64,000 bases of DNA, from contig UICE01000012.1 in assembly GCA_900471815.1 (NCBI GenBank), forward strand, positions 1 through 64,000. Direction: 5' to 3'. Of the stretch, positions 9,441-27,386 are shown one piece after another. How positions within the stretch are numbered: the first letter of the stretch is position 1; every line of letters begins with the position of its first letter. The stretch is from Hyphomicrobiales bacterium. GTDB lineage: Bacteria; Pseudomonadota; Alphaproteobacteria; Rhizobiales; Rhizobiaceae. The position numbers and the translations under genes are program-made. A model generated the notes under the pieces. It was not told the origin of the DNA. It saw nothing but the letters and a program-made list of their open reading frames with translations, and did not search any database.

Positions 9441-11378
9441 TCAGTCACCATTTGCCCTAGCCTTGATAACCTCGTCGTGTTTTTCTTCGATAAGCCTGAA
9501 CATGTCCGTAAACCGACTATCGTATCTTATGGCGTTTAAATCGGAATCGTTCTTGAACCACATTGTTTGGTAGTAGGAGCTTCTAGGCAAAACACACTGC
9601 AGAAGCTGGATGGCTTGCTCAGCGTCGCCGATCAACGAGTATACGCACGCAACGTTGTATTGTGCTACAACATCATCGGGATCAATCGCCAACGCCCGGT
9701 CGGCCCATTCACGGGCACGTTGATCATCGCCAAGATGGGCCCAGGCAAGAGCTCCTCGGTGGGCTGGTCCGGAATTCTCCGGGTTTTGTTTCAATGCCTG
9801 TTCGGCCCGCCATAACGCCACGCGAGCCCAACTTTCGATCTCTGTTGAGTTGCCAAGCGATGCGTAAGCGCTCATCAAGTGAACGGGCGAAAGATAATCA
9901 TCAGGTTTGAGCTCGGCTGCCCGTTTAAAGAACTGTACTGCTGCCTCGAAATTTCCTCGCATGTAATGGAAGCGAGCATAGTGAAAATTTGCCTCGTGCA
10001 GACCCTGATCAATCGCCAGCGCGTGGTGAAAAGAGGCAGCTGCTTCCTCATCTCGACCAGCCTGATGCAGCGCCAATCCACGGGAAGCATATGCTTCGGC
10101 CAAATTTGGGTCCAGCTCAAGGGCCTTGGCCGCCATTGCCGAAATTCGTTCCAACGGAAAATCTTCCGGCTGCCAGTCCCGCAAGGCTGCCTCGCAATCT
10201 GCAATACCAGCATAGGCACGGGCGTAATCGGGGTCCAGTTCCACTGCCTTGCAGAACATGCGCCGTGCCAGGTGAAGATAGGATTTCGTCCAGGCATGAG
10301 AGAATTGCCGCCCACGCAGATAATAAGTGTACGCTTTTACATTCCCTGTTGGCTCGGTCTCGATCGCCTTGCGCTCGTCCGGCAACAGTTTGATTTTCAA
10401 TTGACTGACGATTGCGTAGGTTATTTCATCCTGTATCGCAAAAATATCTGTGAGCTCCCGATCATATCGTTCCGCCCAGACATGACCGCCATACATGGCA
10501 TCAATAAGCTGCCCTGTTATGCGGACGCGTCCTTCAACTTTGCGAACACTGCCTTCCAAAACATAGCGCACACCAAGTTCCTGTGCGACCTGTTTGACTT
10601 TTATGGATTTGCCTTTGTAGGTGAACACGGTATTGCGCGCCACGACATGAAGGCTCGAAACCTTTGACAGATCGGTAATTATGTCTTCGGTAATCCCGTC
10701 GGAAAAATACTCCTGTTCTGGATCGCAGCTCATATTGGTGAATGGCAAGACGGCTATGAATTTCTGAGAATGATCAGGCACGTCAAGCGTTGCGGGTAAA
10801 TCGGAACCTCTTGTGCTCGCCTCGCCAAAACCAACCGTGTAGACTCTGATGTTTTGCTTGATATTTTTAAGGGATTGCTCACCCCGGTCCATGAAACCCA
10901 AATTAAGCCGGGAGCCAATCTGATCGCGAACGGATGCAGCCACGGCAATGCCGCCCGGTTGCGCAATGCTTTCAAGACGCGCGGCGATATTGACACCGTC
11001 GCCAAATATATCGCCATCCTCAACAATTATATCGCCGATATTAATCCCAATGCGCAGTTCAATCCGGCTGTTCTCGTCTACATCGCGGTTGCGTTCCGCC
11101 ATGCCCCTTTGGATATCAGCTGCACACGCAACAGCGTTGACCACACTGGAAAATTCCACCAGCATTCCGTCACCAGTCAGCTTGAAGATCCTGCCGGAAT
11201 GGTCGCTGATCAACGGATCGATAAGTTCGCGGCGATGACGCTTGAAACTGTCGAGCGTTCCCGCCTCGTCAATGCCCATCAAACGGCTGTAGCCGACAAC
11301 GTCAGCGGCGAATATAGCGCTCAGTCGACGTTCCAAATGGCCTCCAGATATCAATTGGCATGTGCAAACGTTTACCAT
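9441..11378 (-). CDS. Class III adenylate cyclase with TolB-like domain and TPR repeats
   Basis: About 645 residues. The N-terminal cyclase homology domain begins HLERRLSAIFAADVVGYSRL. Metal-binding Asp residues sit in ADVVGYS and TGDGMLVEF, and the transition-state Asn/Arg in GDGVNIAARLE, so the catalytic set looks complete. A middle domain (FIAVLPFTNMSCDPEQEYFS, then SDGITEDIITDLSKV) resembles the TolB/FlgO-like module common in these proteins. At least five TPR-like repeats follow (AYAGIADCEAAL, AYASRGLALHQAGR, VAQYNVACVYSLIGD). It likely makes cAMP in response to a protein or ligand bound by the TPR part. The start is uncertain: 11408 is an alternative, and none has a good ribosome site. 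Confidence 0.8.
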   Translation of the reverse strand: MVNVCTCQLISGGHLERRLSAIFAADVVGYSRLMGIDEAGTLDSFKRHRRELIDPLISDHSGRIFKLTGDGMLVEFSSVVNAVACAADIQRGMAERNRDVDENSRIELRIGINIGDIIVEDGDIFGDGVNIAARLESIAQPGGIAVAASVRDQIGSRLNLGFMDRGEQSLKNIKQNIRVYTVGFGEASTRGSDLPATLDVPDHSQKFIAVLPFTNMSCDPEQEYFSDGITEDIITDLSKVSSLHVVARNTVFTYKGKSIKVKQVAQELGVRYVLEGSVRKVEGRVRITGQLIDAMYGGHVWAERYDRELTDIFAIQDEITYAIVSQLKIKLLPDERKAIETEPTGNVKAYTYYLRGRQFSHAWTKSYLHLARRMFCKAVELDPDYARAYAGIADCEAALRDWQPEDFPLERISAMAAKALELDPNLAEAYASRGLALHQAGRDEEAAASFHHALAIDQGLHEANFHYARFHYMRGNFEAAVQFFKRAAELKPDDYLSPVHLMSAYASLGNSTEIESWARVALWRAEQALKQNPENSGPAHRGALAWAHLGDDQRAREWADRALAIDPDDVVAQYNVACVYSLIGDAEQAIQLLQCVLPRSSYYQTMWFKNDSDLNAIRYDSRFTDMFRLIEEKHDEVIKARANGD

Positions 11379-11740
11379 AGCCGCTTGCTTGTGTGATGTC
11401 GCGTCCATCATTCGATTGAACAGCACTAGGAGAAGCCAGGGCTCCCCCCACCAAGCGGACTTTTTTACGACGGCGATGGTTGCCCATTTGCCCGGAACCG
11501 AATTCAAGTGCTGGTTAGATCGTGCAGGGCCCAGCAAGGCAAAGCTGTAACGATCAGCTGAACTGCATCATTCGCGCCTTGGCATTCATTCTGACATCCG
11601 TAGTCGATATCGCGAGCAACCCTTCATACCTTTCCTGTTTCGGCTTAAACGAATTGCGTGGAGATCATTGACCTTGCCTCCACACAGTGAGTTAACCGGT
11701 AGATTATTGCCTACGATTCTTGCGTCAAAGAAGGTACATC

Positions 11741-12406: not shown

Positions 12407-13876
12407 TCAGCCACGGCTCAGAGAATAGACGAGTTGGGAGAGATCATCGCTGAGTGCCCGGTCTTCAACAAGCCGGGCTGACGAGCTGCGCACGAACCGA
12501 TGTATCTGCAAGATCGCCGGGCCACAACTATGTTCGGGTTTGAGGTCAACGGCTTGTGCGGCGGCGAGGAATTCACAAGCTACAATCTGCCGCCAGAGAT
12601 CAATCATGTCGGCGCATTTTGAAACGGCCAGTACCGATTGGGTAGCGTGATCCTCCACACCCTCCGAAACCGGCAGGAAATCGAGCATGACCGGGTTGGC
12701 TTTATGGCGAATGGCGGCCAATAATGCGACGACAGTTTTTTGCAGCGGCACGAAACCGGCTGAAGCTCCGCCCACAGCACTGAGATATTTTGGAAGTCCG
12801 TTGCGCGATGAGCCAGTCAGTTGAATAAACCGTGCAGCGCTGGCAGCGGCGACTTGTGCTATTGCAAGGCCCAAAGTCTCGAAAGCCAGTGCCAATGCGG
12901 GTGTGTGAAAATTGCCGGTTGAAAGCACCCGCTCTTCATCGATGACCACGAGCGGATTATCTGCCGCTGCATTCAGTTCGATTTCAACTGAGTGCTTTGC
13001 TCCTTCCAGCGCCGTCGACAATGCTCCATGGATTGAAGGAATGCAGCGCAGGCTTAAGGGATCCTGTATGGCAGGGCTGGTCGTATGTAATGCCGAACCA
13101 TCAAGCAAGGCCGTCAGTTGTTCTGCTTCTTCGATTTGACCGGAGGCAGCCCGTGCACGTTGCAGCACCGGTGCGAGAATAAGTGGATTGCCACCCAAGC
13201 CTTCAAAACTCAAGGCTGCTGCCTGACGCTGAAAATCAAAAAGCGCCAATGCATCAAAGACAACAAGTGCGCCCTGCCCGACCGATACGGCTGAAGCATT
13301 AAGGAGCGAAAGCCCATCTTTTGGACCAAGCTGCGACGGGAGGAGACCGGCCAATTCAAGTGCAGACGCAGATGGGTAAACCTGCCCTTGATACTCTGAA
13401 TGTCCCTCACCTATCATGCCTTGGGCAAGTGCCGATAATAATACCAGATCACCTGCTCCAATCGATCCAATTGAGGGCATTACGGGGTGAACCTGTTTAT
13501 TCAGCAGAGCGAGCAGATCTGTAAATACGGCAGGCGAAATACCTGAGCCTCCCGCGACCAGCATTGAAAGCCGTGTGGCCATAACCGCCCGCGTGAGTTC
13601 GCGGGACAAGGGCGTGCCCGCCCCCATACCGCGGCCATGCACCAATTGTTGTTGGAATCCGGTGATATCGCCGCTGACGGGTGTTTTGAGATTGGCGCCG
13701 AGGCCGGTGTTCAACCCATAAATCTGCTGCCCGGATGCGGCTGCCATATCGAGTATAGCGCGCGCTTTTTCCAGCCGTTCATATACCTGCGATGCAATTT
13801 CCACGAACGCATCGTTGCGGGCTATAGCTGCAATATCTGTAATCTTGACGGGGCCGTTACCAAAGACGATATTCAT
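12407..13876 (-). CDS. Histidine/phenylalanine ammonia-lyase-fold enzyme lacking the MIO-forming serine
   Basis: A 489-residue member of the aromatic amino-acid lyase family (HutH/PAL). Conserved landmarks are the catalytic Tyr in YGLNTGLG, QQQLVHGRGMG, DPLSLRCIPSIHG, SDNP-like AADNPLVV, TGNFHTPALA and the late acidic motif GVEDHAT (HutH: NQEDHVS). The region that should read GSVGASGDL reads GSIGAGDL. The Ser of the Ala-Ser-Gly triad is absent, so the electrophilic MIO cofactor cannot form in the usual way. Such an enzyme probably eliminates a better leaving group than ammonia; ergothionase, which releases trimethylamine, is the precedent I know. It is the last gene of the cluster and overlaps the previous one by ATGA. 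Substrate unknown. Confidence 0.8.
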   Translation of the reverse strand: MNIVFGNGPVKITDIAAIARNDAFVEIASQVYERLEKARAILDMAAASGQQIYGLNTGLGANLKTPVSGDITGFQQQLVHGRGMGAGTPLSRELTRAVMATRLSMLVAGGSGISPAVFTDLLALLNKQVHPVMPSIGSIGAGDLVLLSALAQGMIGEGHSEYQGQVYPSASALELAGLLPSQLGPKDGLSLLNASAVSVGQGALVVFDALALFDFQRQAAALSFEGLGGNPLILAPVLQRARAASGQIEEAEQLTALLDGSALHTTSPAIQDPLSLRCIPSIHGALSTALEGAKHSVEIELNAAADNPLVVIDEERVLSTGNFHTPALALAFETLGLAIAQVAAASAARFIQLTGSSRNGLPKYLSAVGGASAGFVPLQKTVVALLAAIRHKANPVMLDFLPVSEGVEDHATQSVLAVSKCADMIDLWRQIVACEFLAAAQAVDLKPEHSCGPAILQIHRFVRSSSARLVEDRALSDDLSQLVYSLSRG

Positions 13877-14892
13877 GCAAACCGCAATCGCTGACCAATA
13901 TTGGCTGTCTTGGCCTTTTCCAACATGGCATAGCCTAGTGCGATATCGCTAAGTGACAGGCCTCGGTGCCAGAACAGAATCGTTTCTCCATCGTCTTCCC
14001 GGCCAGATTTATGCCCGGCAACGATCTGTCCAAGTTCAGCGTGCAGGGTCTTTTCAGAGAGTTTTCCCGCTTCGACATGGGCTCGCAGCGAGCCGAATTT
14101 GCCGCCTTTGCATTGACCCCAGTCGTCGACGACAAGCTTGTCCATTATATCTGTCAACGACAGTTCGACGGCACTCATTGTGCCGTAGGGCACTACAAAC
14201 GCTCCTGGCTTGACCCATTCGGTTTTCAACTTCGGCTCGGGAGATGGCAGCCGCGAGGCTTCGACGATGATGTCCGCGCCTTCAACACAGCTGCGCCAGT
14301 CATTGGTCACTACGATTTTCTTCCCGAGATCGTTCGACAACTTTTCCGCAAAAGTTTCCCGGCTTTCCGGGCGGCGCGAATGGATCCTGATCTCATCAAA
14401 ATCATAGAGATGATTGAGCAGACGCACATTCCAGTAGGCCGTGCCGCGTGCGCCAATGTGTCCGAGAATTTTCGAGTTCTTTCGTGCCAGATGCCTGGCA
14501 CCCAGCGCTGTGATCGCTCCTGTTCGCATGTCGGTAATTGCCGTGGCGTCAATTATGGCAAGTGGAACGCCGGTGCGTGGATCAAACAGATTGAGCACAC
14601 CGAATTCCGAAGGATAATTCTGCTTATAATTATCAACAAAGTCGCCAACGATCTTGACGCCGGCTAAATTCAAAGGTGCAACATACCCCCGTAACACATT
14701 GAAGTGACCATTAAAACTCGCATCCGGCTCGAGATGGACACGGGGTTCGATAACAGTCTGATTATTGCCTTGAGCAGTGAGGGATTTCTCGATGGCGCTC
14801 AGAATTTCGGCATCGGTGAGTGTTAGTGCGTCGATATCGAATGCGTTCAGATAATCGATGTAGACTGGTTTCATGTTTGTTTCTTTGGTCAC
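13873..14892 (-). CDS. Ornithine cyclodeaminase/mu-crystallin family protein
   Basis: A 339-residue NAD(P)-binding protein of the OCD/mu-crystallin family. Its Rossmann segment is ILGHIGARGTAYWNVRLL, followed by DEIRIHSRRPESRETFAEKL and GADIIVEASRLPSPEPKLKTEWVKPG. The first half supplies the substrate-binding barrel (GVPLAIIDATAITDMRTGAITALGARHL). Members deaminate ornithine or alanine-like amino acids or reduce cyclic ketimines. The start overlaps the upstream stop by four bases; a second Met six codons later is possible. Sitting between two flavin monooxygenases and a lyase-fold enzyme, it probably handles an amino- or imino-acid intermediate. The actual reaction cannot be read from sequence. 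Confidence 0.8.
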   Translation of the reverse strand: MTKETNMKPVYIDYLNAFDIDALTLTDAEILSAIEKSLTAQGNNQTVIEPRVHLEPDASFNGHFNVLRGYVAPLNLAGVKIVGDFVDNYKQNYPSEFGVLNLFDPRTGVPLAIIDATAITDMRTGAITALGARHLARKNSKILGHIGARGTAYWNVRLLNHLYDFDEIRIHSRRPESRETFAEKLSNDLGKKIVVTNDWRSCVEGADIIVEASRLPSPEPKLKTEWVKPGAFVVPYGTMSAVELSLTDIMDKLVVDDWGQCKGGKFGSLRAHVEAGKLSEKTLHAELGQIVAGHKSGREDDGETILFWHRGLSLSDIALGYAMLEKAKTANIGQRLRFA

Positions 14893-16214
14893 ACTGCGCG
14901 CTCCGGAATATTAAGACCGAGATTATCACGTAGTGTCCTTCCCTCATATTCTATACGGAAGAGACCACGTCGGCGAAGCTCGGGTAAAACCAAATCAATA
15001 AAATCCCTGAGCGCACCGGGAAAGTAAGCACCCATGACATTAAAGCCATCAGCAGCCTTGCCACGAAAGCGCTCTTCCAGCTCATCAGCGATCTGCCTCG
15101 GTGTGCCGATCAACTGCCAATGACCGCGTGCACCCGCGAATTTGCGGGCAGATTGCCGGATATTGAGGTTCTCCCGCCTGGCCTGATCGACAATCAACTG
15201 CTGACGACTCTGTATTCCGTCGGTCGCAGGCATTTCTGGCAAAGGTCCGTCGAGCGGGTATTGCGACAAATCTTTAATGCTCAGATAGCTGGCCAGTAAT
15301 GCGACGCCGACCTCATCTGGAATGAGGTCCTGCAGGGCCTCATATTTCGCCCTCGCCTCGCTCTCCGAATTCGCGACTATTGGAGAAACACCGGGAAGGA
15401 TTTTGAGGTCGCCGGGCTTTCGACCGAACGCCGGCATCCGGGATTTAAGATCAGCGTAATAGGCCTGCGCTTCTTCGATCGTTTGCGCGGCAGTGAATAC
15501 CACATCTGCTGTGCGCGCTGCCAGATTCTTACCCGCCTCCGATGCGCCAGCCTGTACCATAACCGGGCGTCCCTGCGGTGAGCGCTGGCTGTCCAAAATA
15601 CCAGTTAGGGTGAAATGTTTGCCGTGATGGTCCACGGGATGAAGTTTAGCTGGATCGGCATAAACTCCGTCGCTGATGGTGTGTGCATCACTATCCACAC
15701 CGTCCCACAATGCTGCTGCAGCACCGGCAAATTCTTCTGCCCTTTCATAGCGCTGCGCATGGGGCCTCAATCCGCTGGAAACAAAGTTTTCAGCTTCAAG
15801 TTCACTGGCAGACGTGACTAGGTTCCAGCCTGAGCGCCCGCCACTCAATTGATCTAGCGAAGTGAAGGCGCGTGCCAGACCGTAAGGCTCATTGTAGGTT
15901 GTCGATGCGGTGGCAACCAGCCCGATATGGGATGTATTGACCGCCAATGCAGCCAAAAGCGACAGCGGTTCGAACATTGTCGAGCGTGCCGCCTGACTTG
16001 CGAGATTAGGATCTCGCTCACGTATTGCCGCTGCATCCTCTACGAATACCATGTCAAATTTTGCAGCCTCTGCCATGCGCGCCAATTCGATGAAGTGGTC
16101 GATATTGACTCCCGCATTGGCGATTGCATCCGGATGCCGCCAGGCTGCGATGTGATGCCCTCCCGCCATCAGAAAGGCACCAAGTTTCATCTGCCCTGAA
16201 TTCGTACCAGTCAT
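14889..16214 (-). CDS. Flavin-dependent monooxygenase, NtaA/SnaA/DszA (bacterial luciferase-like) family, copy 2
   Basis: A 441-residue luciferase-like monooxygenase of the nitrilotriacetate/pristinamycin/dibenzothiophene-sulfone group. Typical landmarks are MKLGAFLMAGGHHIAAWRHP, FIELARMAEAAKFDMVFVED, FEPLSLLAALAVNTSHIGL, TSASTTYNEPYGLARAFTSL-type text and SGGRSGWNLVTSAS. These enzymes use FMNH2 from a separate reductase to hydroxylate or cleave C-N or C-S bonds. No reductase gene is visible nearby, so reduced flavin must come from elsewhere. It overlaps both neighbours by ATGA-type junctions, showing tight co-translation. Substrate unknown; the amine-type transporter in the same operon suggests a nitrogenous compound. 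Confidence 0.85.
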   Translation of the reverse strand: MTGTNSGQMKLGAFLMAGGHHIAAWRHPDAIANAGVNIDHFIELARMAEAAKFDMVFVEDAAAIRERDPNLASQAARSTMFEPLSLLAALAVNTSHIGLVATASTTYNEPYGLARAFTSLDQLSGGRSGWNLVTSASELEAENFVSSGLRPHAQRYERAEEFAGAAAALWDGVDSDAHTISDGVYADPAKLHPVDHHGKHFTLTGILDSQRSPQGRPVMVQAGASEAGKNLAARTADVVFTAAQTIEEAQAYYADLKSRMPAFGRKPGDLKILPGVSPIVANSESEARAKYEALQDLIPDEVGVALLASYLSIKDLSQYPLDGPLPEMPATDGIQSRQQLIVDQARRENLNIRQSARKFAGARGHWQLIGTPRQIADELEERFRGKAADGFNVMGAYFPGALRDFIDLVLPELRRRGLFRIEYEGRTLRDNLGLNIPERAV

Positions 16215-17284
16215 GATGCTTGCTCCGTCATAGCAGTTGCCGGATGGGCAGGTCTTGGCAAACTCAGATGCTCGCGCAAAGTTTGTCCAGCATATTCTGA
16301 ACGAAAAATGCTGCGCTTCTGGAGTTCGGGCACGACACTTTCAATGAATGGATCGCGGCCATTGGGCAGAAAGGGGGAAAGGCTGATGAAGCCATCGACC
16401 AGTTCGCTCCACTTTTCCAATTGGTCAGCAATTGCCTGTGCAGTTCCGACCAATTCGATGCCGGAAGTTTGTTCGTTGACCTCGATCAAACCACTGAGCT
16501 CCTGCCGAAGCTTGTTTGCCTCATTCTCGGTCTCGCCAATATAGGGGACGATATTGACTAGGATTTTGATGTGGCTTCGTTTGCGTCCGGTTCGATCAAG
16601 GGCTTCGTGAAAGTTGGTGAGCGTCGATTTCAACTCTTCCGGACTACTTACATCCAGGAAAATCACTTCTGCCTTTTGCGCGGCAAGCTCCAGTGTCTGC
16701 GACCGTAACAGTGTAGCGACTACCGGTTTTGCCTGCGGTGATCGATTGACGTTGAGCGGGCCGCGAACCGTGAAATTTTCACCGACGTGGTTCAACACAT
16801 GCATTTTCTGGGGCAGGAAAAACCGCCCCTTGTTCTTATCATAGACAAAAGCGTCGTCTTCCCAACTGTCCCACAATCTGCTTACGACGTCGATGTACTC
16901 GGCAGCTTTTGCCGAAGCTGATGCTGCGATATAATTCCACCCGGTGCGACCGTGACTGATCGTATCAAGTGAAGCAAATCGTCGCGCCAGATTATATGGC
17001 TCATGCTGATCCATAGCTGCACTGGCTATCAACCCGATTTTGCCTGCCATGGTCGCCAAAGCCGCAATCAGTGTCGTGGGTTCAAACGGAACGGTTTGGG
17101 CTGACAGGTCTTTAACTGGCCTATGGCCAAAATTGTCTGCAAAAAGAACAAAATCCAGTTTTGCATCCTGCGCCCGCTTCACCTGTTCCGAAATTCGATC
17201 GAACCGAAGCGCATTTACCGATCCATTTTTTTGCCATGCAGCAAGATGATGGCCGAACGGCGTGATGGAGGTTCCAAGATGCAT
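16211..17284 (-). CDS. Flavin-dependent monooxygenase, NtaA/SnaA/DszA family, copy 1
   Basis: A 357-residue paralogue of the monooxygenase directly downstream. It has MHLGTSITPFGHHLAAWQKNG, DAKLDFVLFADNFGHRP, FEPTTLIAALATMAGKIGL, SAAMDQHEPYNLARRFASLD and SHGRTGWNYIAASASAKA. It is about 80 residues shorter than copy 2, the difference lying in the middle, but the flavin barrel appears complete. The ATG has an AGGGAG ribosome site and lies 20 bases after the ATPase gene. Two paralogues in tandem may act in sequence or on two parts of one substrate. Family assignment is strong; substrate unknown. Confidence 0.85.
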   Translation of the reverse strand: MHLGTSITPFGHHLAAWQKNGSVNALRFDRISEQVKRAQDAKLDFVLFADNFGHRPVKDLSAQTVPFEPTTLIAALATMAGKIGLIASAAMDQHEPYNLARRFASLDTISHGRTGWNYIAASASAKAAEYIDVVSRLWDSWEDDAFVYDKNKGRFFLPQKMHVLNHVGENFTVRGPLNVNRSPQAKPVVATLLRSQTLELAAQKAEVIFLDVSSPEELKSTLTNFHEALDRTGRKRSHIKILVNIVPYIGETENEANKLRQELSGLIEVNEQTSGIELVGTAQAIADQLEKWSELVDGFISLSPFLPNGRDPFIESVVPELQKRSIFRSEYAGQTLREHLSLPRPAHPATAMTEQAS

Positions 17285-17303
17285 TTTCGCGCTCCCTGCG
17301 CCG

Positions 17304-18236
17304 TCAAACCGAAAAGATGGCGTCGCGGCTAAGTTTACCCGTCACGGTGCCATGTTCGTCGATCACTGCAAGAACGTCGCTATTGGCGGCAACCATCAGT
17401 GCCAGCGCATCGCGCAGATTACTTGTTTGCCTGACGCTCCTTGCATTGTTTGACGGTGCGTCGCCATTCATGGCATCTGCGACAGTAAACAGGCTAAGCC
17501 GCTTGATCGCTCTGTCTATACCGACGAAATTTTCGACAAAAGCGTCTGCTGGATGTGACAGCACAGCGTCTGGCGTATCATATTGAACGATCTTGCCATC
17601 TTTCATGATGGCGATGCGATCGCCTAGCCGGATCGCTTCGTCAAGATCATGCGTCACAAGTACGACCGTCTTTTTCACCCGCTGCAATATCTGGCGAAAC
17701 TCGGCTTGCAGCCTTGTGCGAGCAATCGGGTCAATCGCCCCGAAAGGTTCGTCCATCAGCAGGACGGGAGGATCGGCAGCTAGAGCGCGCGCCACACCGA
17801 TACGCTGACGTTGTCCGCCGGAAAGTTGGCGGGGATAGCGCTTTAGCATTTCGTTAGGATCGAGACCGACCAGATGAAGCAGTTCTTCTGTGCGGCTTTT
17901 GATTCTAGCGTCTTCCCAGCCAAGCAATTTGGGCACCGCCGCAATATTTTGCGCTATGGTCATGTGCGGAAACAGGCCGACCTGCTGAATCACATATCCA
18001 ATATGCCTGCGCAGTTGTACGGGATCAACCTTGGTCACATCCTCGCCGTTGACGATGATCTTGCCTTCGGTCGGATCAATGAGGCGATTGATCATCCGCA
18101 TTGTCGTCGTCTTGCCGCAACCTGATGGTCCGATAAGCGCAGTGGTTGTGCCCTCGGGCACAGCAATTGATAGATCGTCAACCGAGGCAGGCCCGCCATC
18201 GGTGTAGCGTTTGGTGACGTGTTCCATGTTAATCAT
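17304..18236 (-). CDS. Osmoprotectant/quaternary-amine-type ABC transporter ATP-binding protein (OpuBA/ProV-like)
   Basis: A 310-residue ATPase with Walker A GPSGCGKTTTMRMINRLIDP, Q-loop VIQQVGLFPHMT, signature LSGGQRQRIGVARALA, Walker B VLLMDEPFGAIDP and switch His in LVTHDLDEA. The RMINRLI segment after Walker A is characteristic of the glycine-betaine/carnitine/choline ATPases. The C-terminal ~80 residues (DALALMVAANSDVLAVIDEHGTV) look like one CBS-type regulatory module. The gene overlaps the permease stop. It drives uptake of the substrate that the enzymes downstream presumably process. Confidence 0.88.
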   Translation of the reverse strand: MINMEHVTKRYTDGGPASVDDLSIAVPEGTTTALIGPSGCGKTTTMRMINRLIDPTEGKIIVNGEDVTKVDPVQLRRHIGYVIQQVGLFPHMTIAQNIAAVPKLLGWEDARIKSRTEELLHLVGLDPNEMLKRYPRQLSGGQRQRIGVARALAADPPVLLMDEPFGAIDPIARTRLQAEFRQILQRVKKTVVLVTHDLDEAIRLGDRIAIMKDGKIVQYDTPDAVLSHPADAFVENFVGIDRAIKRLSLFTVADAMNGDAPSNNARSVRQTSNLRDALALMVAANSDVLAVIDEHGTVTGKLSRDAIFSV

Positions 18237-18874
18237 GCGGCCGATCTTTCTGAAAAGAAAACTTTCTCGGCAAGGCCAAGGATGAACTCGGTACCAAGTG
18301 CCAAAAGTGCGATTGGAATCGCTCCGACGAGCAGCCGCGACATATCCATCATGCTGATACCAACAGCGATAAAATCGCCAAGGCCGCCTCCGCCAATGAA
18401 TGGCGCGAGTGTTGCTCCTGCCAGCACCTGAACGGCAGCAGTACGTGCTCCAGCAAACATGGCTGGCGCCGCAAGCGGAATACGGATTTTCCGCAGAACC
18501 TGCCCGCGGCTCATGCCCATCCCGATTGCAGCTTCGATCGCATCCGGATCGACATCCCGTAATCCGATAAAGGCATTGAGCAGAATTGGCGGAAGGGCAA
18601 GTACCGTCAGTGCGACAATGGAAGGCAAAAGCCCGATACCCAGCAAAGGCATCATGATCGCAAGAATGGCAAGGCTCGGCACCGTGCGCAGAGCGTTGAC
18701 GATATTGATTACGCTGAAGGCGAGATTACTGCGGTTGATAATCAGGATCGCCAACGGAAGCCCAATAGCAAGCGCAATTCCAAGGGAGACACCCGACATA
18801 ACGAGGTGGCGACCCAGCGCCTGATAAAACTCAGGCTGATGTTCGATTATCCAGGTAAAGGCAGTGCTTAACAT
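18233..18874 (-). CDS. Osmoprotectant-type ABC transporter permease (OpuBB-like), second subunit
   Basis: 213 residues with about five to six membrane helices and the BPD_transp_1 coupling loop (DVDPDAIEAAIGMGMSRGQVLRKIRIPLAAP). Residues NALRTVPSLAILAIMMPLLGIG are typical of OpuB/YehW-type permeases. A gap of four bases separates it from the other permease, and it overlaps the ATPase gene. It forms the membrane channel with the subunit encoded at 18879-19496. Confidence 0.88.
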   Translation of the reverse strand: MLSTAFTWIIEHQPEFYQALGRHLVMSGVSLGIALAIGLPLAILIINRSNLAFSVINIVNALRTVPSLAILAIMMPLLGIGLLPSIVALTVLALPPILLNAFIGLRDVDPDAIEAAIGMGMSRGQVLRKIRIPLAAPAMFAGARTAAVQVLAGATLAPFIGGGGLGDFIAVGISMMDMSRLLVGAIPIALLALGTEFILGLAEKVFFSERSAA

Positions 18875-18878
18875 GCTG

Positions 18879-19496
18879 TCACCGCCCTCTTGCCATCAGT
18901 TTTTCGGCCTGGCTGAGGACAACATCGAAAAACGTAGCCATCAGAGCGGTCAGTATGCCACCAACGAGAATTTTCTCGGTGTATTCCTGATCTATTCCCG
19001 TGAGAATGATAGTGCCGAGACCTCCGCCGTCAATGAATGCGGCAACAGTCGCGATTCCTATCACTGTTACAAGCGCAATACGAATGCCGGAAATTATAAG
19101 CGGCATTGCAAGGGGCAACTCGATCTGAACCAACCGCTGCCACGCGCTGTATCCCATACCATCTGCGGCATCCAGTACGTCGGCGGGGACACCACGTAAG
19201 CCCGTCACGACATTGCGCAACAGGATGAGCAAACAATAAGACGATAGACCGACCAGTGCCGGTTTTGTGCCAAGCCCCAACCACGGTATGAGCAAGGCAA
19301 ACAGGGCAAGACTCGGAATGACAAAGATAATACCGGTAATCGTCAGCACGACCGCATAAAGTTTTTGCCGGCGCGCGCAGATGACGCCGAGTACCAGCGC
19401 GATTATCAGTCCGATGAGAACCGCAGAAACGGACAGGAACAGATGCTGCCAGGTTGCGGTCAGTATTTCAGGAATGTTTTTAGGAGCCCAATTCAA
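18879..19496 (-). CDS. Osmoprotectant-type ABC transporter permease (OpuBD-like), first subunit
   Basis: About 206 residues with five to six membrane helices, the OpuB-type segment ITGIIFVIPSLALFALLIPWLGLG and coupling loop GVPADVLDAADGMGYSAWQRLVQIELPLAMP. No ATG exists in the frame upstream of the membrane core. I prefer the TTG at 19496, which has AGGA six bases ahead. A TTG at 19544 also opens the frame but sits exactly in the loop of a 15-bp hairpin and has no accessible ribosome site. Translation of this subunit is therefore probably limited relative to the binding protein. Confidence 0.82.
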   Translation of the reverse strand: MNWAPKNIPEILTATWQHLFLSVSAVLIGLIIALVLGVICARRQKLYAVVLTITGIIFVIPSLALFALLIPWLGLGTKPALVGLSSYCLLILLRNVVTGLRGVPADVLDAADGMGYSAWQRLVQIELPLAMPLIISGIRIALVTVIGIATVAAFIDGGGLGTIILTGIDQEYTEKILVGGILTALMATFFDVVLSQAEKLMARGR

Positions 19497-19526
19497 AGGT
19501 GTTTCCTGTATTGCCGGTTCTGCAAT

Positions 19527-19560
19527 GAACCAGCGGAGATGCAATCATCTCCGCTGGTTC
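19527..19560 (-). other. Strong hairpin between binding-protein and permease genes
   Basis: A perfect 15-bp inverted repeat (arms 19527-19541 and 19546-19560) with a CAAT loop. It begins 42 bases after the binding-protein stop. On the transcript it is not followed by a U-run, so it is more likely an mRNA-stabilising or partial-attenuation element than a full terminator. Such elements often give binding proteins higher expression than permeases. Confidence 0.65.
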
Positions 19561-19602
19561 CTATCGCATGGTCGCTGGAGCTTTTGGTTCCTTTTAGGCC
19601 AA

Positions 19603-20484
19603 TCAGATACCTTTTTCCTTCAGGAATTCGGCTGCTACTTCCTTCGGTTCCTTTTTGTCACGTTCTACCGCTGCGTTCAGTGCGCGCATGTTTTCATTGT
19701 TAAGGAGCGGGCTGATCTTGTTCAGCACTTCAGCAATCTTTGGATTCTTTGCCAAAGTATCCTGCCGGACGACCGGCACCAGATAATAGGGAGGGAAAAG
19801 ATGTTTGTCGTCATCAAGCACTACAAGCTTGCTGTCGGCGATCTGCCAATCAGTGCTGAATCCGTAGGAAACATCGATATCACCGCTCGTAAGTGCGCTG
19901 TAGCGGATACCGAGCTTGGCGAAGATACGGAAGTCCTTGAACTGGATGCCGTAAGTTTGCTTCAGGCCTGGCAATCCATCCTTGCGCTCGCCGAAACCAC
20001 CCTCTGCGCCGAATGACAAATCTTTGGACACCGGACCGAGATCAGTCAGCGTCTTGAGCTTGTATTTCTCGGCAGTTTCAGGAAGCGTGATGATTGCATA
20101 GCCATTGTTAATCTGCGTAGGGTCGAGAAGTGTCAGCTGCAGGTTTTTCTCGTAGTAGTCTTTGACTTCCTTGTAGATTTTATCGGCGGTCCCCGACAAA
20201 TCTCCTTTAACAACTGAAGCCAGGGCCGTGCCGGTATATTCCGGATATAGATCGATTTCGCCGTTGGTCAGCGCTGAATGAGCAATCAACGTAGCGCCAA
20301 GGTTCAACCTGCGCTCCACCGTGAGCCCCGCCTTTTCCAAAGCCTGCGCGTAGATTTCGGCAACAACGAATTGTTCCGTGAAATTTTTGCTGCCAATCTT
20401 AACCGTTTGGGCAAAACCAGAAGTCGCTCCAGCGAGCGTTATAAGAGCGCCCAGACCAAGCGCAGCGATGCTTTTCAAGATCAT
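19603..20484 (-). CDS. Osmoprotectant-type periplasmic binding protein (OpuBC/OsmF-like)
   Basis: About 293 residues of the OpuAC/choline-binding family. A signal peptide (MILKSIAALGLGALITLAGA, cut near GFAQ) precedes the mature start TVKIGSKNFTEQFVVAEIYAQALEKAG, which is highly typical of OpuBC/YehZ. Later hallmarks are IDLYPEYTGTAL, SGDIDVSYGFSTDWQI and PPYYLVPVVRQDTLAKNP. The ATG at 20484 has GGGA eight bases upstream; a TTG 12 bases earlier is unlikely. It is the first gene of the transporter-monooxygenase-lyase cluster and captures its presumed substrate, probably a betaine-like or quaternary nitrogen compound. Ligand is inferred. Confidence 0.88.
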   Translation of the reverse strand: MILKSIAALGLGALITLAGATSGFAQTVKIGSKNFTEQFVVAEIYAQALEKAGLTVERRLNLGATLIAHSALTNGEIDLYPEYTGTALASVVKGDLSGTADKIYKEVKDYYEKNLQLTLLDPTQINNGYAIITLPETAEKYKLKTLTDLGPVSKDLSFGAEGGFGERKDGLPGLKQTYGIQFKDFRIFAKLGIRYSALTSGDIDVSYGFSTDWQIADSKLVVLDDDKHLFPPYYLVPVVRQDTLAKNPKIAEVLNKISPLLNNENMRALNAAVERDKKEPKEVAAEFLKEKGI

Positions 20485-20690: not shown

Positions 20691-21557
20691 TTAACCCTTC
20701 ACTGCGCCGGCGGTCAGACCCGATACAATTTTGCGTTGGAAAATCAGAACCAGAACGAGAAGCGGAAGCGTGACCGTTACAGAAGCCGCCATTATCTGAC
20801 CGAACGGATATTCGTAACGGCTGCTACCGGTAAGCAGACCCATAGCGACAGGGACCGTGCGGTTCTCATCGGTGAGAATGAACGTCAAGGCAAACAGAAA
20901 CTCATTCCACGAAAGAATAAAGGCAAGCAAGCCTGTGCTGGCAATGGCCGGCCCCATAAGTGGTAGGAGGACATGGGTGAGTATCCTCAGACGGGAGCAT
21001 CCGTCAATTAGCGCAGCTTCCTCGAGTTCTTGCGGCAGATCTCGAATGAAACTTGTCAAAACCCACGTCGTAAATGGCAACACCAACAAGAGATAGGAGA
21101 AGACAAGTGCCGTCGGTCGATTGTAAAGACCGAGCCATCCGATAACCTCGAACATTCCGGACAAGACAACAACCTGCGGGAAAACTGAAATCATCAGCAC
21201 GCAGATCAGAATGATACGGGAAAACCGAAAACTCATCCGCCCCAATGCATATGCCGCCAGGATACTGATGGCTAGAGAGATCACGCTGCTGGTAAAGGCG
21301 ACAAAAGCTGAGTTGACGATTGCACCAATAAAGATCGGGTTGTGATAAAGGGTGATGTAGTTACTGAAATCCAGCGAGGGCAGCAAACTGAAAGAATAAA
21401 GATCTTCGCTCGATTTTGTAGAGGAAATAATAGCCCAATAATAAGGGAATAACATGTAAACGAGCACCAGCGCCACACCCGCATAAAGCCCGGCACGTTT
21501 GGCAATGCGTAATTTTCGATAGGTGCTGTTGGAATAATGTCTTGAACCTCCCGTCAT
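20691..21557 (-). CDS. Carbohydrate ABC transporter permease (MalG/ThuG-like)
   Basis: 288 residues, six membrane helices, with the CUT1 permease coupling loop (LEEAALIDGCSRLRILTHVLLPLMGP, the EAA motif) and the C-terminal VSGLTAGAVKG end typical of MalG-type subunits. It is the last gene of the GH4/kinase/ABC operon, starting three bases after the MalF-like subunit. It forms the inner-membrane channel for an oligosaccharide or glycoside. Family certain; substrate not determinable. Confidence 0.9.
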   Translation of the reverse strand: MTGGSRHYSNSTYRKLRIAKRAGLYAGVALVLVYMLFPYYWAIISSTKSSEDLYSFSLLPSLDFSNYITLYHNPIFIGAIVNSAFVAFTSSVISLAISILAAYALGRMSFRFSRIILICVLMISVFPQVVVLSGMFEVIGWLGLYNRPTALVFSYLLLVLPFTTWVLTSFIRDLPQELEEAALIDGCSRLRILTHVLLPLMGPAIASTGLLAFILSWNEFLFALTFILTDENRTVPVAMGLLTGSSRYEYPFGQIMAASVTVTLPLLVLVLIFQRKIVSGLTAGAVKG

Positions 21558-21560
21558 CGG

Positions 21561-22436
21561 TCAACCCGTATTCCGGTCGAGTCTGAGAATGCTCACCATA
21601 GCGATCGCAATCAGCCCTATTATAAGAAACACCCAAGTTGAAGCGGCGGAACCTACACCCAGGTCCTGAAAGCTGATCAGTTGATCCCGCGCATAGATTG
21701 ACATTGTCATCGCCTTCTCATTGTTGGCGGCAAGGACATAACTCAGATCAAACATCCGCAGCGCATCGAGTGTCCGGAAAAGAACGGCTACTCCAATGGC
21801 GGGTGTCGCCAGCGGCAAGGTGATCGACCACAGACGCTTCCATGCCGGCACTCCGGAAACCTCAGCGGCCTCGTAGATTTCTTCCGGTATCAACTGTAAA
21901 CCAGCAAGAATAAGCAGAACCATGAAGGGCGTCGTGACCCATACGTCGATGAAGATAACCGTGCCGAGGATAAGGGACGGATCAGCTGTCCATGCGATGC
22001 CCTTTTCAAGGAAGCCTAGCCAGATCAAGCCCTTGTTGATAAGGCCAAATTGATCATTGAACATCCACTCCCAAATCTTTGCGGATACGACCATCGGCAT
22101 GGCCCATGGAACCAATATAGCGGCCCGCACCAGCCCGCGCCCGACGAAGGCGCGATGCAACAGCAAGGCGATCGCAAAACCAAGCAGGGTCTCCAACGCC
22201 ACGGAGACAAAAGTGAAAACAAGCGTATTGCGTACGGCACCCCAGAAAATGGAGTCTTCCCAAACCGTAATAAAGTTTTGAAAGCCGACAAAGCTATAAT
22301 CTGCAGGATTATCGAGAAAGGCATCGGTGAAAGAGAAATACATGTTCCGTGCCAGTGGCCATGCTGCAACAGCCGTAAGTGCCAACAGAAGTGGCAGGAG
22401 AAAAAACCAGGCTATGGTTGTTTCCCTGTTTTTCAT
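21561..22436 (-). CDS. Carbohydrate ABC transporter permease (MalF/ThuF-like)
   Basis: About 291 residues starting MKNRETTIAWFFLLPLLLAL. The ATG overlaps the ATPase stop as ATGA; an earlier in-frame start would lie within that gene. It has six membrane helices and the EAA coupling loop (IYEAAEVSGVPAWKRLWSITLPLATP). The segment LRMFDLSYVLAANNEKAMTMS is typical of ThuF/UgpA-like subunits. It pairs with the permease at 20691. Confidence 0.9.
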   Translation of the reverse strand: MKNRETTIAWFFLLPLLLALTAVAAWPLARNMYFSFTDAFLDNPADYSFVGFQNFITVWEDSIFWGAVRNTLVFTFVSVALETLLGFAIALLLHRAFVGRGLVRAAILVPWAMPMVVSAKIWEWMFNDQFGLINKGLIWLGFLEKGIAWTADPSLILGTVIFIDVWVTTPFMVLLILAGLQLIPEEIYEAAEVSGVPAWKRLWSITLPLATPAIGVAVLFRTLDALRMFDLSYVLAANNEKAMTMSIYARDQLISFQDLGVGSAASTWVFLIIGLIAIAMVSILRLDRNTG

Positions 22437-23536
22437 TGGTTTATTGCAACTGCTGGTTTCAGAACTAGGCCAACGTCGAGACACTGGTCTTTATCATCGA
22501 AAAGATAGATATCCTCGGGGTTCCATCTCAAGCCAACCTTGGACCCTGAAGCATATGCCGGAATGGCACCTCCGGAGCGTACGGTCCAGATCGTGTCATC
22601 GCTCAAGCGGATATAAGCGATCTGCTCATAACCAAGGTCTTCGACACGTTCAAAGACACCCTTTATGCAACGGCCTGCGTCTGCGGAAATTATTTCCAAT
22701 GATTCGGGGCGAAGTCCTAGTGTCACTGGTTTTTTTGCATCTAACTGATCCAGTTTCAGCTCGAAGCCGCCAGGGCCGGTTATCACGCCCTGCGTTTCAC
22801 TTTTGACAGACGCAAAGTTCATGCGAGGGCTACCAAGGAAACCTGCAACGAACTTGTTTGCCGGATGATCATAGAGCTGACGGGGCGTTCCTACCTGTTC
22901 AATGCGCCCATGATTGAGGATGACGATCCGATCGGCGAGCGTCATGGCCTCAGTCTGATCATGTGTAACATAAATCATCGTGGCACTGACTTCGGCATGC
23001 AACTTGGCGATTTCGAAACGCATCTCCATTCGCAAGTCAGCATCAAGATTGGAAAGGGGCTCATCAAAGAGGAATAGTTTTGGCTGACTGACCAGAGCCC
23101 GTCCTATCGCAACGCGCTGGCGCTGCCCGCCTGAAAGCTGCTTTGGTTTACGATCGAGTAGGTGGTCGATTTTCAACATATCGGCGACCTTGGCCAACCG
23201 CCGACCAATCTCGACCTTGGTCATTCGCGCTGTTTCCAGGGCAAAACTGATGTTACGAGCCACATTCATGTGAGGATAGAGGGCATAGGACTGAAAAACG
23301 AACGCAACGCCGCGTTTTGACGCCGGTACGTCCGTAACTTCTTCTCCATCAATTGAGACAGTCCCTTGCGAGACAGGAACCAACCCGGCAATGACACGCA
23401 GCAAAGTTGATTTGCCGCAGCCTGATGGCCCCACGAAGACCACGAATTCTCCATCTTCAATGTCGAGGTCGATCGACCGGAGCACATCAAAAGCTCCAAA
23501 GCTCTTGCTGACTTCTTTCAGTGTGACGGAGGCCAT
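22433..23536 (-). CDS. MalK/UgpC-type sugar ABC transporter ATP-binding protein
   Basis: A 367-residue CUT1 ATPase with Walker A GPSGCGKST, Q-loop FVFQSYALYPHM, signature LSGGQRQRVAIGRALV, Walker B LFLFDEPLSNLD and switch YVTHDQTEAMTLADRI. It has the C-terminal TOBE/OB regulatory domain (VTLGLRPESLEII, VGLRWNPEDIYLFDDK). Notably a dedicated ATPase is present rather than a shared MalK. It lies 93 bases after the binding-protein gene, with a hairpin in the gap, and overlaps the MalF-like gene. Confidence 0.92.
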   Translation of the reverse strand: MASVTLKEVSKSFGAFDVLRSIDLDIEDGEFVVFVGPSGCGKSTLLRVIAGLVPVSQGTVSIDGEEVTDVPASKRGVAFVFQSYALYPHMNVARNISFALETARMTKVEIGRRLAKVADMLKIDHLLDRKPKQLSGGQRQRVAIGRALVSQPKLFLFDEPLSNLDADLRMEMRFEIAKLHAEVSATMIYVTHDQTEAMTLADRIVILNHGRIEQVGTPRQLYDHPANKFVAGFLGSPRMNFASVKSETQGVITGPGGFELKLDQLDAKKPVTLGLRPESLEIISADAGRCIKGVFERVEDLGYEQIAYIRLSDDTIWTVRSGGAIPAYASGSKVGLRWNPEDIYLFDDKDQCLDVGLVLKPAVAINQ

Positions 23537-23595
23537 TATGTTGCCCTTGCCTTAACCTGTGACTTGCAATGCGTGAGCTTTGGTGAAGGAGAAGC

Positions 23596-23622
23596 CCGCC
23601 TGCGGGCGTTATCCGCAGGCGG
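23596..23622 (-). other. Hairpin between binding-protein and ATPase genes
   Basis: CCGCCTGCGG and CCGCAGGCGG form a perfect 10-bp GC-rich stem with a 7-base loop, seven bases after the binding-protein stop. No U-run follows on the transcript. It is placed like the REP-type stabilisers after malE, so it probably raises binding-protein expression relative to downstream genes. Confidence 0.65.
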
Positions 23623-23629
23623 TTGTGCT

Positions 23630-24892
23630 TCAGTTGGCTTTTACGTCGCGCTTCAGCTTCTTTTCAAGCTGCACAACTTCCTCTGCCACATCGCCGGTCC
23701 CGGAGATTATGTCATGGACCGCGCGATAGAAGGTGCGCGAAACCCGATTATAATTCTTCCCGGTCGCCGCAGATGGCCGAGCAACGGATTCTTCGAAAGC
23801 TGCTTTCGCCATGGGCAGGAACGGTATTTTCGCGAGGACGTCAGCGTCGGTGTAGAGCGCTTCAACCGTAGGGTTGTATCCGCCCTTTATTGCTCGCATT
23901 TTCTGGTCCTCAAGTCCCACCATATACCTCAACAGTTCTGCAGCTTTCTCTTGCTTTGCCGAATATTTCGACACGGCCAGATAGGCTGTACCAAGAGCAC
24001 CGCTTGATTTTTGCCCATTTGCACCGATTGGCAATGCTGAGACGCCAACCTTATCAACCAGCTTGCCGCCCTGCGCCTGAGATGTCCCCCAGACATAAGG
24101 CCAATTGCGGTGGAAGACGGCATTGCCACTTTCGAAAAGCGCGCGGGAGCTCTCTTCATCATAGTTCAAGACACCCTTTGGGGAGATCGTATCAATCCAG
24201 CCCCGAGCCCGAGTGAGTGCGGCAACGGTTGCTGGATTGTTGATTGTCACCTCTCCTTTGTCGGAAAGAATGGTACCGCCACCGCCTGCAGCGATCCATT
24301 CGACGGCGTCACAGGTAAGCCCCTCATAGCTGCGGCCCTGCCAGGCGTAACCCCACATATCGGCATTGCCAGCCTTGCGCTCACTGTCCTGAATTTCCTT
24401 GGCGGTTGCTGTTAGCTCATCCCAAGTCTTCGGTGCCTGCTTGCCATATTTTTCCAGCAGATCCTTTCGATAGAACATCAGTCCGGTATCAATGTAGAAG
24501 GGCATTGCGACAAGCTTGTTGTCGATACGGGCCGCATCTGTCGCCGATGCAAAATGGGCCTTTACCTCTGCCTCGGGAACAAGCGAGACAAGGTCCGAGA
24601 AGTGATCCTTCATCATGCCCAACCAAATCACATCCACATAGAGCAGATCGACATCAGACGATTTGGAAGCGAATAATTGCTGATAGATAGGAATGGCGTC
24701 ATCGAGATTTTGCGGTGTGCGATTGATCTTGACCTCATTACCCGAGGATTTTGCCCATTTTTGAGCCCCTTCTTCGCAAAGCTCATAATCCGTGGCCGAG
24801 CAGAACATCGATATTGTTTCTGCCTTAGCTGGCAGCGCCACTGCAACTGTCATAAAAGCGAGGCTTGCAAGCAGTTTGTATTGGTATCCCAT
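23630..24892 (-). CDS. Extracellular sugar-binding protein of ABC importer (CUT1 family)
   Basis: 420 residues with a signal peptide (YKLLASLAFMTVAVALPAKAE). The mature part is a type 1 solute-binding protein resembling trehalose/maltose binders: IPIYQQLFASKSSDVDLLYVD, AMPFYIDTGLMFYRKDLLEKYG, TWDELTATAKEIQ, NPATVAALTRARGWID, FESGNAVFHRNWPY and GTAYLAVSKYS. It delivers a di- or oligosaccharide to the permeases downstream. It is followed by the hairpin at 23596-23622. Ligand unknown; the GH4 enzyme in the same operon suggests a glycoside. Confidence 0.88.
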   Translation of the reverse strand: MGYQYKLLASLAFMTVAVALPAKAETISMFCSATDYELCEEGAQKWAKSSGNEVKINRTPQNLDDAIPIYQQLFASKSSDVDLLYVDVIWLGMMKDHFSDLVSLVPEAEVKAHFASATDAARIDNKLVAMPFYIDTGLMFYRKDLLEKYGKQAPKTWDELTATAKEIQDSERKAGNADMWGYAWQGRSYEGLTCDAVEWIAAGGGGTILSDKGEVTINNPATVAALTRARGWIDTISPKGVLNYDEESSRALFESGNAVFHRNWPYVWGTSQAQGGKLVDKVGVSALPIGANGQKSSGALGTAYLAVSKYSAKQEKAAELLRYMVGLEDQKMRAIKGGYNPTVEALYTDADVLAKIPFLPMAKAAFEESVARPSAATGKNYNRVSRTFYRAVHDIISGTGDVAEEVVQLEKKLKRDVKAN

Positions 24893-24927
24893 GATCGTTC
24901 CCTATTTTTCTTGATTGATTGGAGTCA

Positions 24928-27236: not shown

Positions 27237-27269
27237 GAATTGCTCCAATGCTCATGCTGTGCTATTGCT

Positions 27270-27285
27270 ACTGGTCATAACCAGT
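27270..27285. promoter_or_regulatory. Candidate GntR operator in divergent promoter region
   Basis: ACTGGT-CATA-ACCAGT, perfect 6-base arms with a 4-base spacer, lies between the GH4 operon and the divergent GntR gene. Its size and symmetry suit a HutC-type GntR dimer. It could control both directions. The sugar signal is unknown. Confidence 0.5.
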
Positions 27286-27386
27286 TATGTCAACACAGTC
27301 GAAACATCTTGTATTCAATAACCTCGACAACAGGCGTAGCAATCTGCCAGATAGCTCAGACACCAAAAAGCGGGTGAAGATTCGAG

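Follow-up and report, generated by a model that had tools for sequence, protein, structure and literature searches.

What would an enzyme with the fold of histidine ammonia-lyase (HutH) eliminate if its catalytic triad is incomplete, and in what pathway would it act together with a quaternary-amine importer and two flavin-dependent proteins? This question is raised by an operon in a 64,000-nucleotide stretch of DNA (the window), positions 1 to 64,000 of contig UICE01000012.1 in assembly GCA_900471815.1 of a Hyphomicrobiales bacterium (Rhizobiaceae) related to Phyllobacterium. An earlier note, written from the letters of the sequence, had described here an eight-gene minus-strand run with mostly overlapping junctions after the first gene, and all eight genes were confirmed on that strand between 12407 and 20484, in the order binding protein, permease A, permease B, ATPase, MoxB, MoxA, OCD and lyase. 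From upstream to downstream the junctions measure +58, +4, -4, +19, -4, -4 and -4 bases; four of the seven, and four of the six that follow the first, are 4-base overlaps, the remaining gaps being 58, 4 and 19 bases. The family assignments of the note were borne out as well (PF04069, two PF00528 proteins, a ProV-type ATPase, two PF00296 proteins, PF02423 and PF00221), and these matches support its view that the importer is of the quaternary-amine type. Our answer, in which we place about even confidence, is that this is an aerobic operon for the uptake and breakdown of an ergothioneine-family betaine, most likely ergothioneine or ergothioneine 2-sulfonate, from which trimethylamine is eliminated and urocanate formed.

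Evidence for this answer comes first from the lyase (P0001). Where P. putida HutH reads GSVGASGDL, the window protein has GSIGAGDL, so that the Ala-Ser-Gly triad, which in histidine ammonia-lyase forms the 4-methylideneimidazole-5-one (MIO) electrophile, is one residue short, and the gap lies exactly where the triad of ergothionase is short (SIGA-GD and SIGE-GD versus SVGASGD). P0001 shares with HutH the fold and most active-site residues, keeping Tyr53, Arg277, the NFH motif at 322-324 and Glu408 (counterparts of Tyr53, Arg283 and Glu414), but differs from it in the triad, in having Lys for Val at 380 and in having Arg for His at 82. Lys380 occupies the site of Lys383, a catalytic residue of ergothionase (PDB entry 6s7j). 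The late Glu in HutH marks imidazole substrates.

In principle, the short triad could reflect a sequencing error or local decay in an ordinary histidine ammonia-lyase operon, and many relatives of the lyase are indeed annotated as histidine ammonia-lyase and carry the name hutH. We therefore collected homologues with P0001 as query, a set that is neither a census nor an unbiased survey and from which the window itself (L001), identical copies and matches spanning under about 380 residues were removed. The triad is short by one or more residues in 114 of these 132 distinct homologues, most commonly as SIGA-GD (84 of the 114), and P0001 scores only 373.6 bits against the HutH equivalog model TIGR01225, whose cutoff is 539.15 bits, which together refute error or decay and make it highly improbable. 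A separate HutH with an intact triad is moreover encoded on contig C14 of the same genome, and no collected homologue with an intact triad comes closer to P0001 than about 36% identity. What the earlier note had claimed for the lyase, namely the shortened triad, the retained Tyr, Arg, NFH and late Glu and, at the level of sequence, the inability to form MIO, thus stands, while the two doubts it had raised against itself, a sequence error and close homologues that are ordinary histidine lyases with intact triads, do not.

The second part of the signature is Lys380, which is present in 112 of the 114 triad-less homologues and in none of the 18 triad-bearing ones. The two triad-less exceptions combine the lesion SVGY, with three residues gone, and Tyr at 380; these HutH-like proteins (L159 and L167 near 15031) are perhaps a third MIO-less kind. 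Tyr53, Arg277 and Glu408 are kept in all 132 homologues, the Glu hence in 114 of 114 triad-less ones, and in five lyases of the collected set SIGDSD replaces SIGAGD at the triad. In an alignment of 35 rows (32 loci hand-picked from the 148 with matches, the window protein and two PDB sequences), short triad and Lys380 occur together in all 23 clade members, a count that excludes L159, and in ergothionase, whereas Val is found in 10 of 10 histidine ammonia-lyases. The tree built from these rows supports a group of the 10 MIO lyases at 100/100 and the window clade, made up of 23 triad-less rows, at 96/89; L159, an odd row, adjoins the MIO lyases, and ergothionase sits on a long branch, its placement being unsure. 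A second tree of 34 rows, which left out L159, L055, L024, L136, L138, L123 and L150 and added six others, splits 24 non-MIO from 10 MIO rows at 100/100.

Among solved proteins, ergothionase is the nearest relative of the lyase by sequence and by fold, in line with the likeness drawn in the earlier note. It is the best PDB sequence match (7.5e-73, the next being 3.5e-70) and the best Foldseek match of the AlphaFold2 model (5.4e-29 versus 5.7e-28 for the next protein, TM-score 0.91), both margins being small. The model (for the structure alignment, 16 of the 80 loci surveyed below were used beside the window protein) has the HutH fold with a mean predicted local distance difference test score of 83.2, its low-confidence loops 58-69, 357-367 and 397-410 including part of the active site. 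The nearest named relative that we found, from Phyllobacterium sp. YR531, is 81% identical.

From these parts a pathway can be proposed. The OpuC-type importer, judging by its family, would bring in the quaternary amine; MoxA with its partner MoxB, using reduced flavin mononucleotide (FMNH2) from a flavin reductase encoded elsewhere in the genome, might then oxygenate the ring sulfur; and the lyase would remove the beta-carbon proton and expel trimethylamine. This last activity is a prediction with strong sequence support: trimethylamine, as a quaternary ammonium, should be a good enough leaving group without MIO, and a Lys is found at the ergothionase position. In a speculative fourth step, the OCD-family reductase might give a hydride to ring C2 with release of sulfite, yielding urocanate, which would enter the ordinary HutU pathway, whose gene is present on another contig.

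The solved relatives of the binding protein (P0008) include acetylcholine/nicotine sensor precursors, Lmo1422 and EgtUC, whose chains match at 4.8e-43 to 5.8e-43. It belongs to PF04069, as expected for a subcluster F-III quaternary-amine binding protein, the aromatic cage being judged from motifs only.

For the oxygenation step, the earlier note had counted two flavin monooxygenases. Both proteins do belong to PF00296 and exceed the cutoff of TIGR03860, the NtaA/DmoA model, but they would more likely act as one unit. The best solved match of MoxA is 7e36_B, presumably NtfO2, the flavin mononucleotide (FMN)-site subunit of the NtfO1-NtfO2 heterodimer. Across the window and 31 adjacent MoxB-MoxA pairs, with some places entering repeatedly, MoxA sequences share on average 77% pairwise identity and MoxB sequences 54%, and an H..RY motif is present in all four MoxA rows printed and in none of the four MoxB rows. 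On our reading, which matches this motif to H151/Y155 of NtfO2 from spacing alone, it would be the FMN-phosphate site. Since MoxB lacks it, MoxA and MoxB are more likely one heterodimer with a non-catalytic MoxB, as in NtfO1-NtfO2, and we have replaced the idea of two independent monooxygenases accordingly in our scheme. In NtfO1-NtfO2 and StmO1-StmO2, too, an FMN-binding O2 subunit is paired with a less conserved O1 (PMC8027225, in the portion available to us), a likeness drawn here from sequences; their substrate differs in being a polyketide, which is hydroxylated. Further relatives of MoxA include the C-S-cleaving DszA, monooxygenases for nitrilotriacetate and ethylenediaminetetraacetate (EDTA), and a C-hydroxylating pair. 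Two PF01613 flavin reductase candidates are encoded on other contigs of the genome. MoxA-like genes (57% identical) on a plasmid of Rhizobium rhizogenes (Agrobacterium radiobacter) K84 and on a Phyllobacterium plasmid were set aside; they have different neighbourhoods, and no lyase or OCD is annotated in the stretches around them.

The OCD/mu-crystallin-family protein is the most constant companion of the lyase, retaining 62-76% identity at loci where that of the lyase falls to 32-43%. It accompanies the ergothionase-like lyase of Polaromonas, near YeiH and LysR genes; no OCD was seen in the stretches examined at lyase loci L146, L148, L150, L151 and L177, and no lyase in the stretch read around a Terrarubrum OCD. 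As it stays constant beside differing lyases, its substrate should be something common to several of them, the simplest candidate being an imidazole compound close to urocanate or histidine. Its best solved match is an alanine dehydrogenase, others being pyrroline-2-carboxylate, thiomorpholine-carboxylate and iminosuccinate reductases or dehydrogenases. The enzymes for the latter three compounds act on C=N bonds. A bolder proposal, doubtful when taken as a whole, is that the OCD protein would be a reductive imidazole C2 desulfonase, which would deliver hydride to C2 of urocanate-2-sulfonate or a similar 2-substituted imidazole so that sulfite is lost and urocanate released, and that a widespread module, through which ergothioneine-family compounds are linked to the histidine pathway, might have it as its common core. 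In such a module, one conserved OCD would be combined with many lyases (MIO-less Lys-type, ergothionase-type and true HutH), often together with a PhnD-like protein without an obvious signal peptide. A protein of this kind (PF12974; signal peptide judged by eye) follows OCD or lyase in many relatives (examples in Table 1), and there is no match to it within the window.

The genome contains a single urocanase (PF01175) match, whose start lies 1.3 kb past the triad-bearing HutH. The urocanase family includes thiourocanate hydratase, whose absence from the operon, as recorded in the earlier note, therefore holds genome-wide as far as this family is concerned; a copy elsewhere in the genome was rejected on the same ground. 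It does not follow, as the note had argued, that the substrate may be new, since ergothioneine 2-sulfonate, or removal of sulfur to give urocanate, would require only ordinary HutU. A urocanase was present in all 32 lyase genomes tested, and exactly one in 28 of them. A search of the genome for the EgtD family gave no match, so the compound would come from outside. YeiH-type (PF03601) and LysR genes lie no more than about 6 kb from the lyase in Rhizobium, in G611 and in Polaromonas, whose lyase is ergothionase-like. YeiH-type genes are located near the module at L105 and L172, which represent one lineage, and at L173 and L181; L183 adds a partial match at its edge. One PF03601 record is annotated as a putative sulfate exporter, and the genome of the window carries a single PF03601 gene, which is on a different contig. 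We treat these genes as a lead only. A pathway that starts from a histidine derivative and perhaps releases sulfur is suggested by what lies near related loci, namely HutC regulators, one hut operon and the YeiH-type genes.

The genome-neighbourhood search that the earlier note had proposed was run on 80 loci found with P0001 (L003-L082), in which genes were called by identity thresholds. The full set of eight recurs in 18 of them, and L007 shows six genes, cut by a contig end. Beyond this set, loci L173 and L176 combine a 41-42% identical lyase with OCD and MoxB-MoxA, MoxA and lyase lying within 3 kb of each other and one locus having the importer at 72-74%. On Rhizobium johnstonii pRL12 and in Martelella we find a HutC regulator, lyase, binding protein, OCD, PhnD-like gene, permeases and ATPase, with no Mox gene in the stretch shown; the two regulators score 279.1 and 266.7 against the HutC equivalog cutoff of 220. 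Across 121 genomes of the family, the lyase (E<=1e-90) occurs in 8 and MoxA (E<=1e-165) in 4, all of which are among the 8; the hypergeometric chance of this is 8e-6, or 1.2e-4 without the window's own genome, a calculation that treats genomes as independent, which they are not. As the two genes belong to the same operon in the window's genome and in G636 and are neighbours in G611, the association is linkage as much as independent co-occurrence. A MoxA in G654 (60%) fell below the E threshold.

A number of observations weigh against our proposal. To begin with the lyase, the structural comparison foreseen in the earlier note gave the same TM-score of 0.91 for HutH (1gkj) as for ergothionase, so that the fold does not discriminate between the two functions and was rejected as proof of ergothionase activity. 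The second tree pairs ergothionase with the Polaromonas lyase L181 (100/99, 42% identical) and not with the window clade, which stands apart with weak support (54/87); ergothionase is about 32% identical to P0001 and has an SH dyad and NRGVGxNKD where P0001 has GR and NTGLGANLK. P0001 is thus ergothionase-like by signature, but the tree does not support placing it in the lineage of the characterised ergothionase. Most of the window clade has Arg82 where histidine ammonia-lyases and ergothionase have His: residues 81-82 are GR or AR in 106 of the 114 triad-less homologues and SH in the other 8, as in all 18 triad-bearing homologues and in T. denticola ergothionase. The same dyad of tyrosine and phenylalanine ammonia-lyases is directed at the far end of the ring and governs which substrate is chosen. 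A negatively charged group on the ring, for instance a 2-sulfonate, would be a good match for Arg82. The ergothionase dyad SH is also found in a second MIO-less lyase (L151, 8455-10047) of G142, a genome that has a window-type lyase as well; its neighbours resemble, by eye, aminotransferase and aldehyde-dehydrogenase genes, and the 19 kb read around it contain no OCD.

The importer raises a similar difficulty. SpEgtUC, a member of the same binding-protein family as P0008, uses Gly244 and Phe293 for tight ergothioneine binding, according to the part of PMC9732360 available to us. By-eye comparison of the KNF and EYTGT motifs would put Phe and Tyr at these two sites in P0008, as in the glycine-betaine binder AfProX (PMC9732360, same limit), and on this motif evidence an SpEgtU-type ergothioneine importer seems unlikely and was set aside. 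Both differences bear on the idea that the substrate is ergothioneine itself, the lyase making thiourocanate, MoxA/MoxB removing the sulfur oxidatively and OCD acting later on a ring-oxidised product. The non-MIO signature shared with ergothionase, the C-S-cleaving enzyme among the MoxA relatives and the lack of a second urocanase for the thiourocanate hydratase route speak for this variant; the replacement of the ergothionase His by Arg82, which suggests a different ring substituent, and the apparent absence of EgtU-type determinants speak against it, and we consider it rather unlikely.

The neighbourhoods are not uniform either. In 61 of the 80 loci, mostly from Mesorhizobium, only the OCD-lyase pair was found, with no Mox gene in the stretch examined. 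MoxA homologues were present in all six genomes searched for them (six loci, L050 and L005 being left out; the match in G002 has one internal TAG), and in five Mesorhizobium genomes adjacent MoxB-MoxA genes (MoxA 66-68%) lie away from the OCD-lyase pair, but the pair in Mesorhizobium ciceri (L107 6774-9166) adjoins guanine-deaminase-like and xanthine-dehydrogenase-like genes (by eye). In other branches, L145 and L147 combine OCD and a PhnD-like gene with an MttB-like gene (PF06253, confirmed for L145 and seen by eye for L147), and in L149 the OCD-lyase pair stands beside a Rieske oxygenase and two DAO-GCV_T (DMGDH-like) genes, neighbours that suggest several substrates. They would fit a clade serving several N-methyl compounds, so that the substrate here might be another aromatic or histidine betaine (hercynine, a ring-substituted histidine betaine or hypaphorine) whose carbon or nitrogen, not sulfur, is attacked by MoxA/MoxB, as the nitrilotriacetate/EDTA and C-hydroxylating relatives of MoxA would allow. 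That the imidazole-type Glu is kept and that YeiH-type genes occur in the vicinity of three lineages both argue, if indirectly, against this alternative, which we regard as unlikely.

For the later steps of the pathway that we favour, OCD and a PhnD-like gene also occur inside a hut operon (HutC, urocanase, HutI, HutG) on a Comamonadaceae plasmid whose HutH has the triad ASG, and an OCD match covering 78% of the query, with no annotated gene there, lies beside a true HutH in Rhodococcus; the role of OCD is therefore not tied to trimethylamine elimination. A urocanase exceeds the cutoff in 100 of the 121 family genomes, which makes its co-occurrence weak as support. The search for YeiH-type genes covered 190 sequences, made up of the window and 189 loci, of which 121 have a length of at least 10 kb; such a gene was nearby in only 5, in one of them as a partial match. 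None of the five is of the window type, and the YeiH-type genes were picked out after the fact.

The features are collected in Table 1. The sugar importer genes upstream of the operon are apparently unrelated to it.

Table 1. Operon genes, other genes of the window, and examples of PhnD-like genes at related loci
Feature	Position	Strand	Match or remark
P0008, periplasmic substrate-binding protein of OpuC/OsmF-type quaternary-amine ABC (ATP-binding cassette) importer	19603..20484	-	PF04069 6.5e-70
P0007, importer permease A	18879..19544	-	PF00528; retained with the other seven genes in 18/80 loci
P0006, importer permease B	18233..18874	-	PF00528
P0005, importer ATPase	17304..18236	-	TIGR01186 proV 339.9 bits (cutoff 326.6); 4-base overlap with permease B
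P0004, MoxB, luciferase-like, probable non-catalytic partner of MoxA	16211..17284	-	PF00296; above TIGR03860 cutoff; without H..RY
P0003, MoxA, NtaA/DszA-type FMN-dependent monooxygenase, probable catalytic subunit	14889..16214	-	TIGR03860 532.4 bits (cutoff 279.7)
P0002, OCD/mu-crystallin-family protein, most constant lyase partner	13873..14892	-	PF02423 5.2e-53; GTG start as given
P0001, HutH-fold lyase without MIO	12407..13876	-	PF00221; GSIGA-GDL, K380, R82, Y53, R277, E408; best PDB match 6s7j
Apparent sugar ABC importer (by eye), family 4 glycosidase, PfkB kinase, divergent GntR/UTRA regulator	20691-28160		upstream of operon
Adenylate/guanylate cyclase domain with TPR repeats	9441-11537		
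HlyD-family protein and ABC transporter with membrane domain	37454-41118		possible type I secretion pair
PhnD-like protein, L105	11615-12433		PF12974
PhnD-like protein, L104	11486-12286		PF12974
PhnD-like protein, L145	17785-18600		PF12974

The elimination chemistry proposed here is known from ergothionase (ergothioneine trimethylamine-lyase of T. denticola), with which P0001 shares the HutH fold, the triad short by one residue, the Lys at the QK site and the conserved Tyr, Arg and Glu. A bacterial ergothioneine sulfonate catabolic pathway has reportedly been described by Yan, Huang and Zhang (2022, ACS Catal 12:4825), to go by the title. That title, together with a citation for A. radiobacter, suggests the same bacterial order and compound class, and the paper may already describe this gene set, judged from its title alone. 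A 2026 article (PMC13405746), in the part available, names Burkholderia, two Cupriavidus species, A. radiobacter and T. denticola as organisms in which ergothionase is definitively identified, and cites the 2022 paper for A. radiobacter; the accessible part of PMC9967237 lists that paper too. In the literature searched, we recognised no paper describing these genes from titles, abstract starts or term counts. What a specialist might not foresee is how broad the MIO-less clade is, along with the two-part signature and the OCD partner.

Taken together, short triad and Lys380 set true HutH apart from a large MIO-less clade that has many members among rhizobia and their relatives. If members of this clade eliminate trimethylamine, ergothioneine-type breakdown with release of trimethylamine would be commoner than annotated, and the constant OCD partner would then be a testable candidate enzyme of imidazole metabolism.

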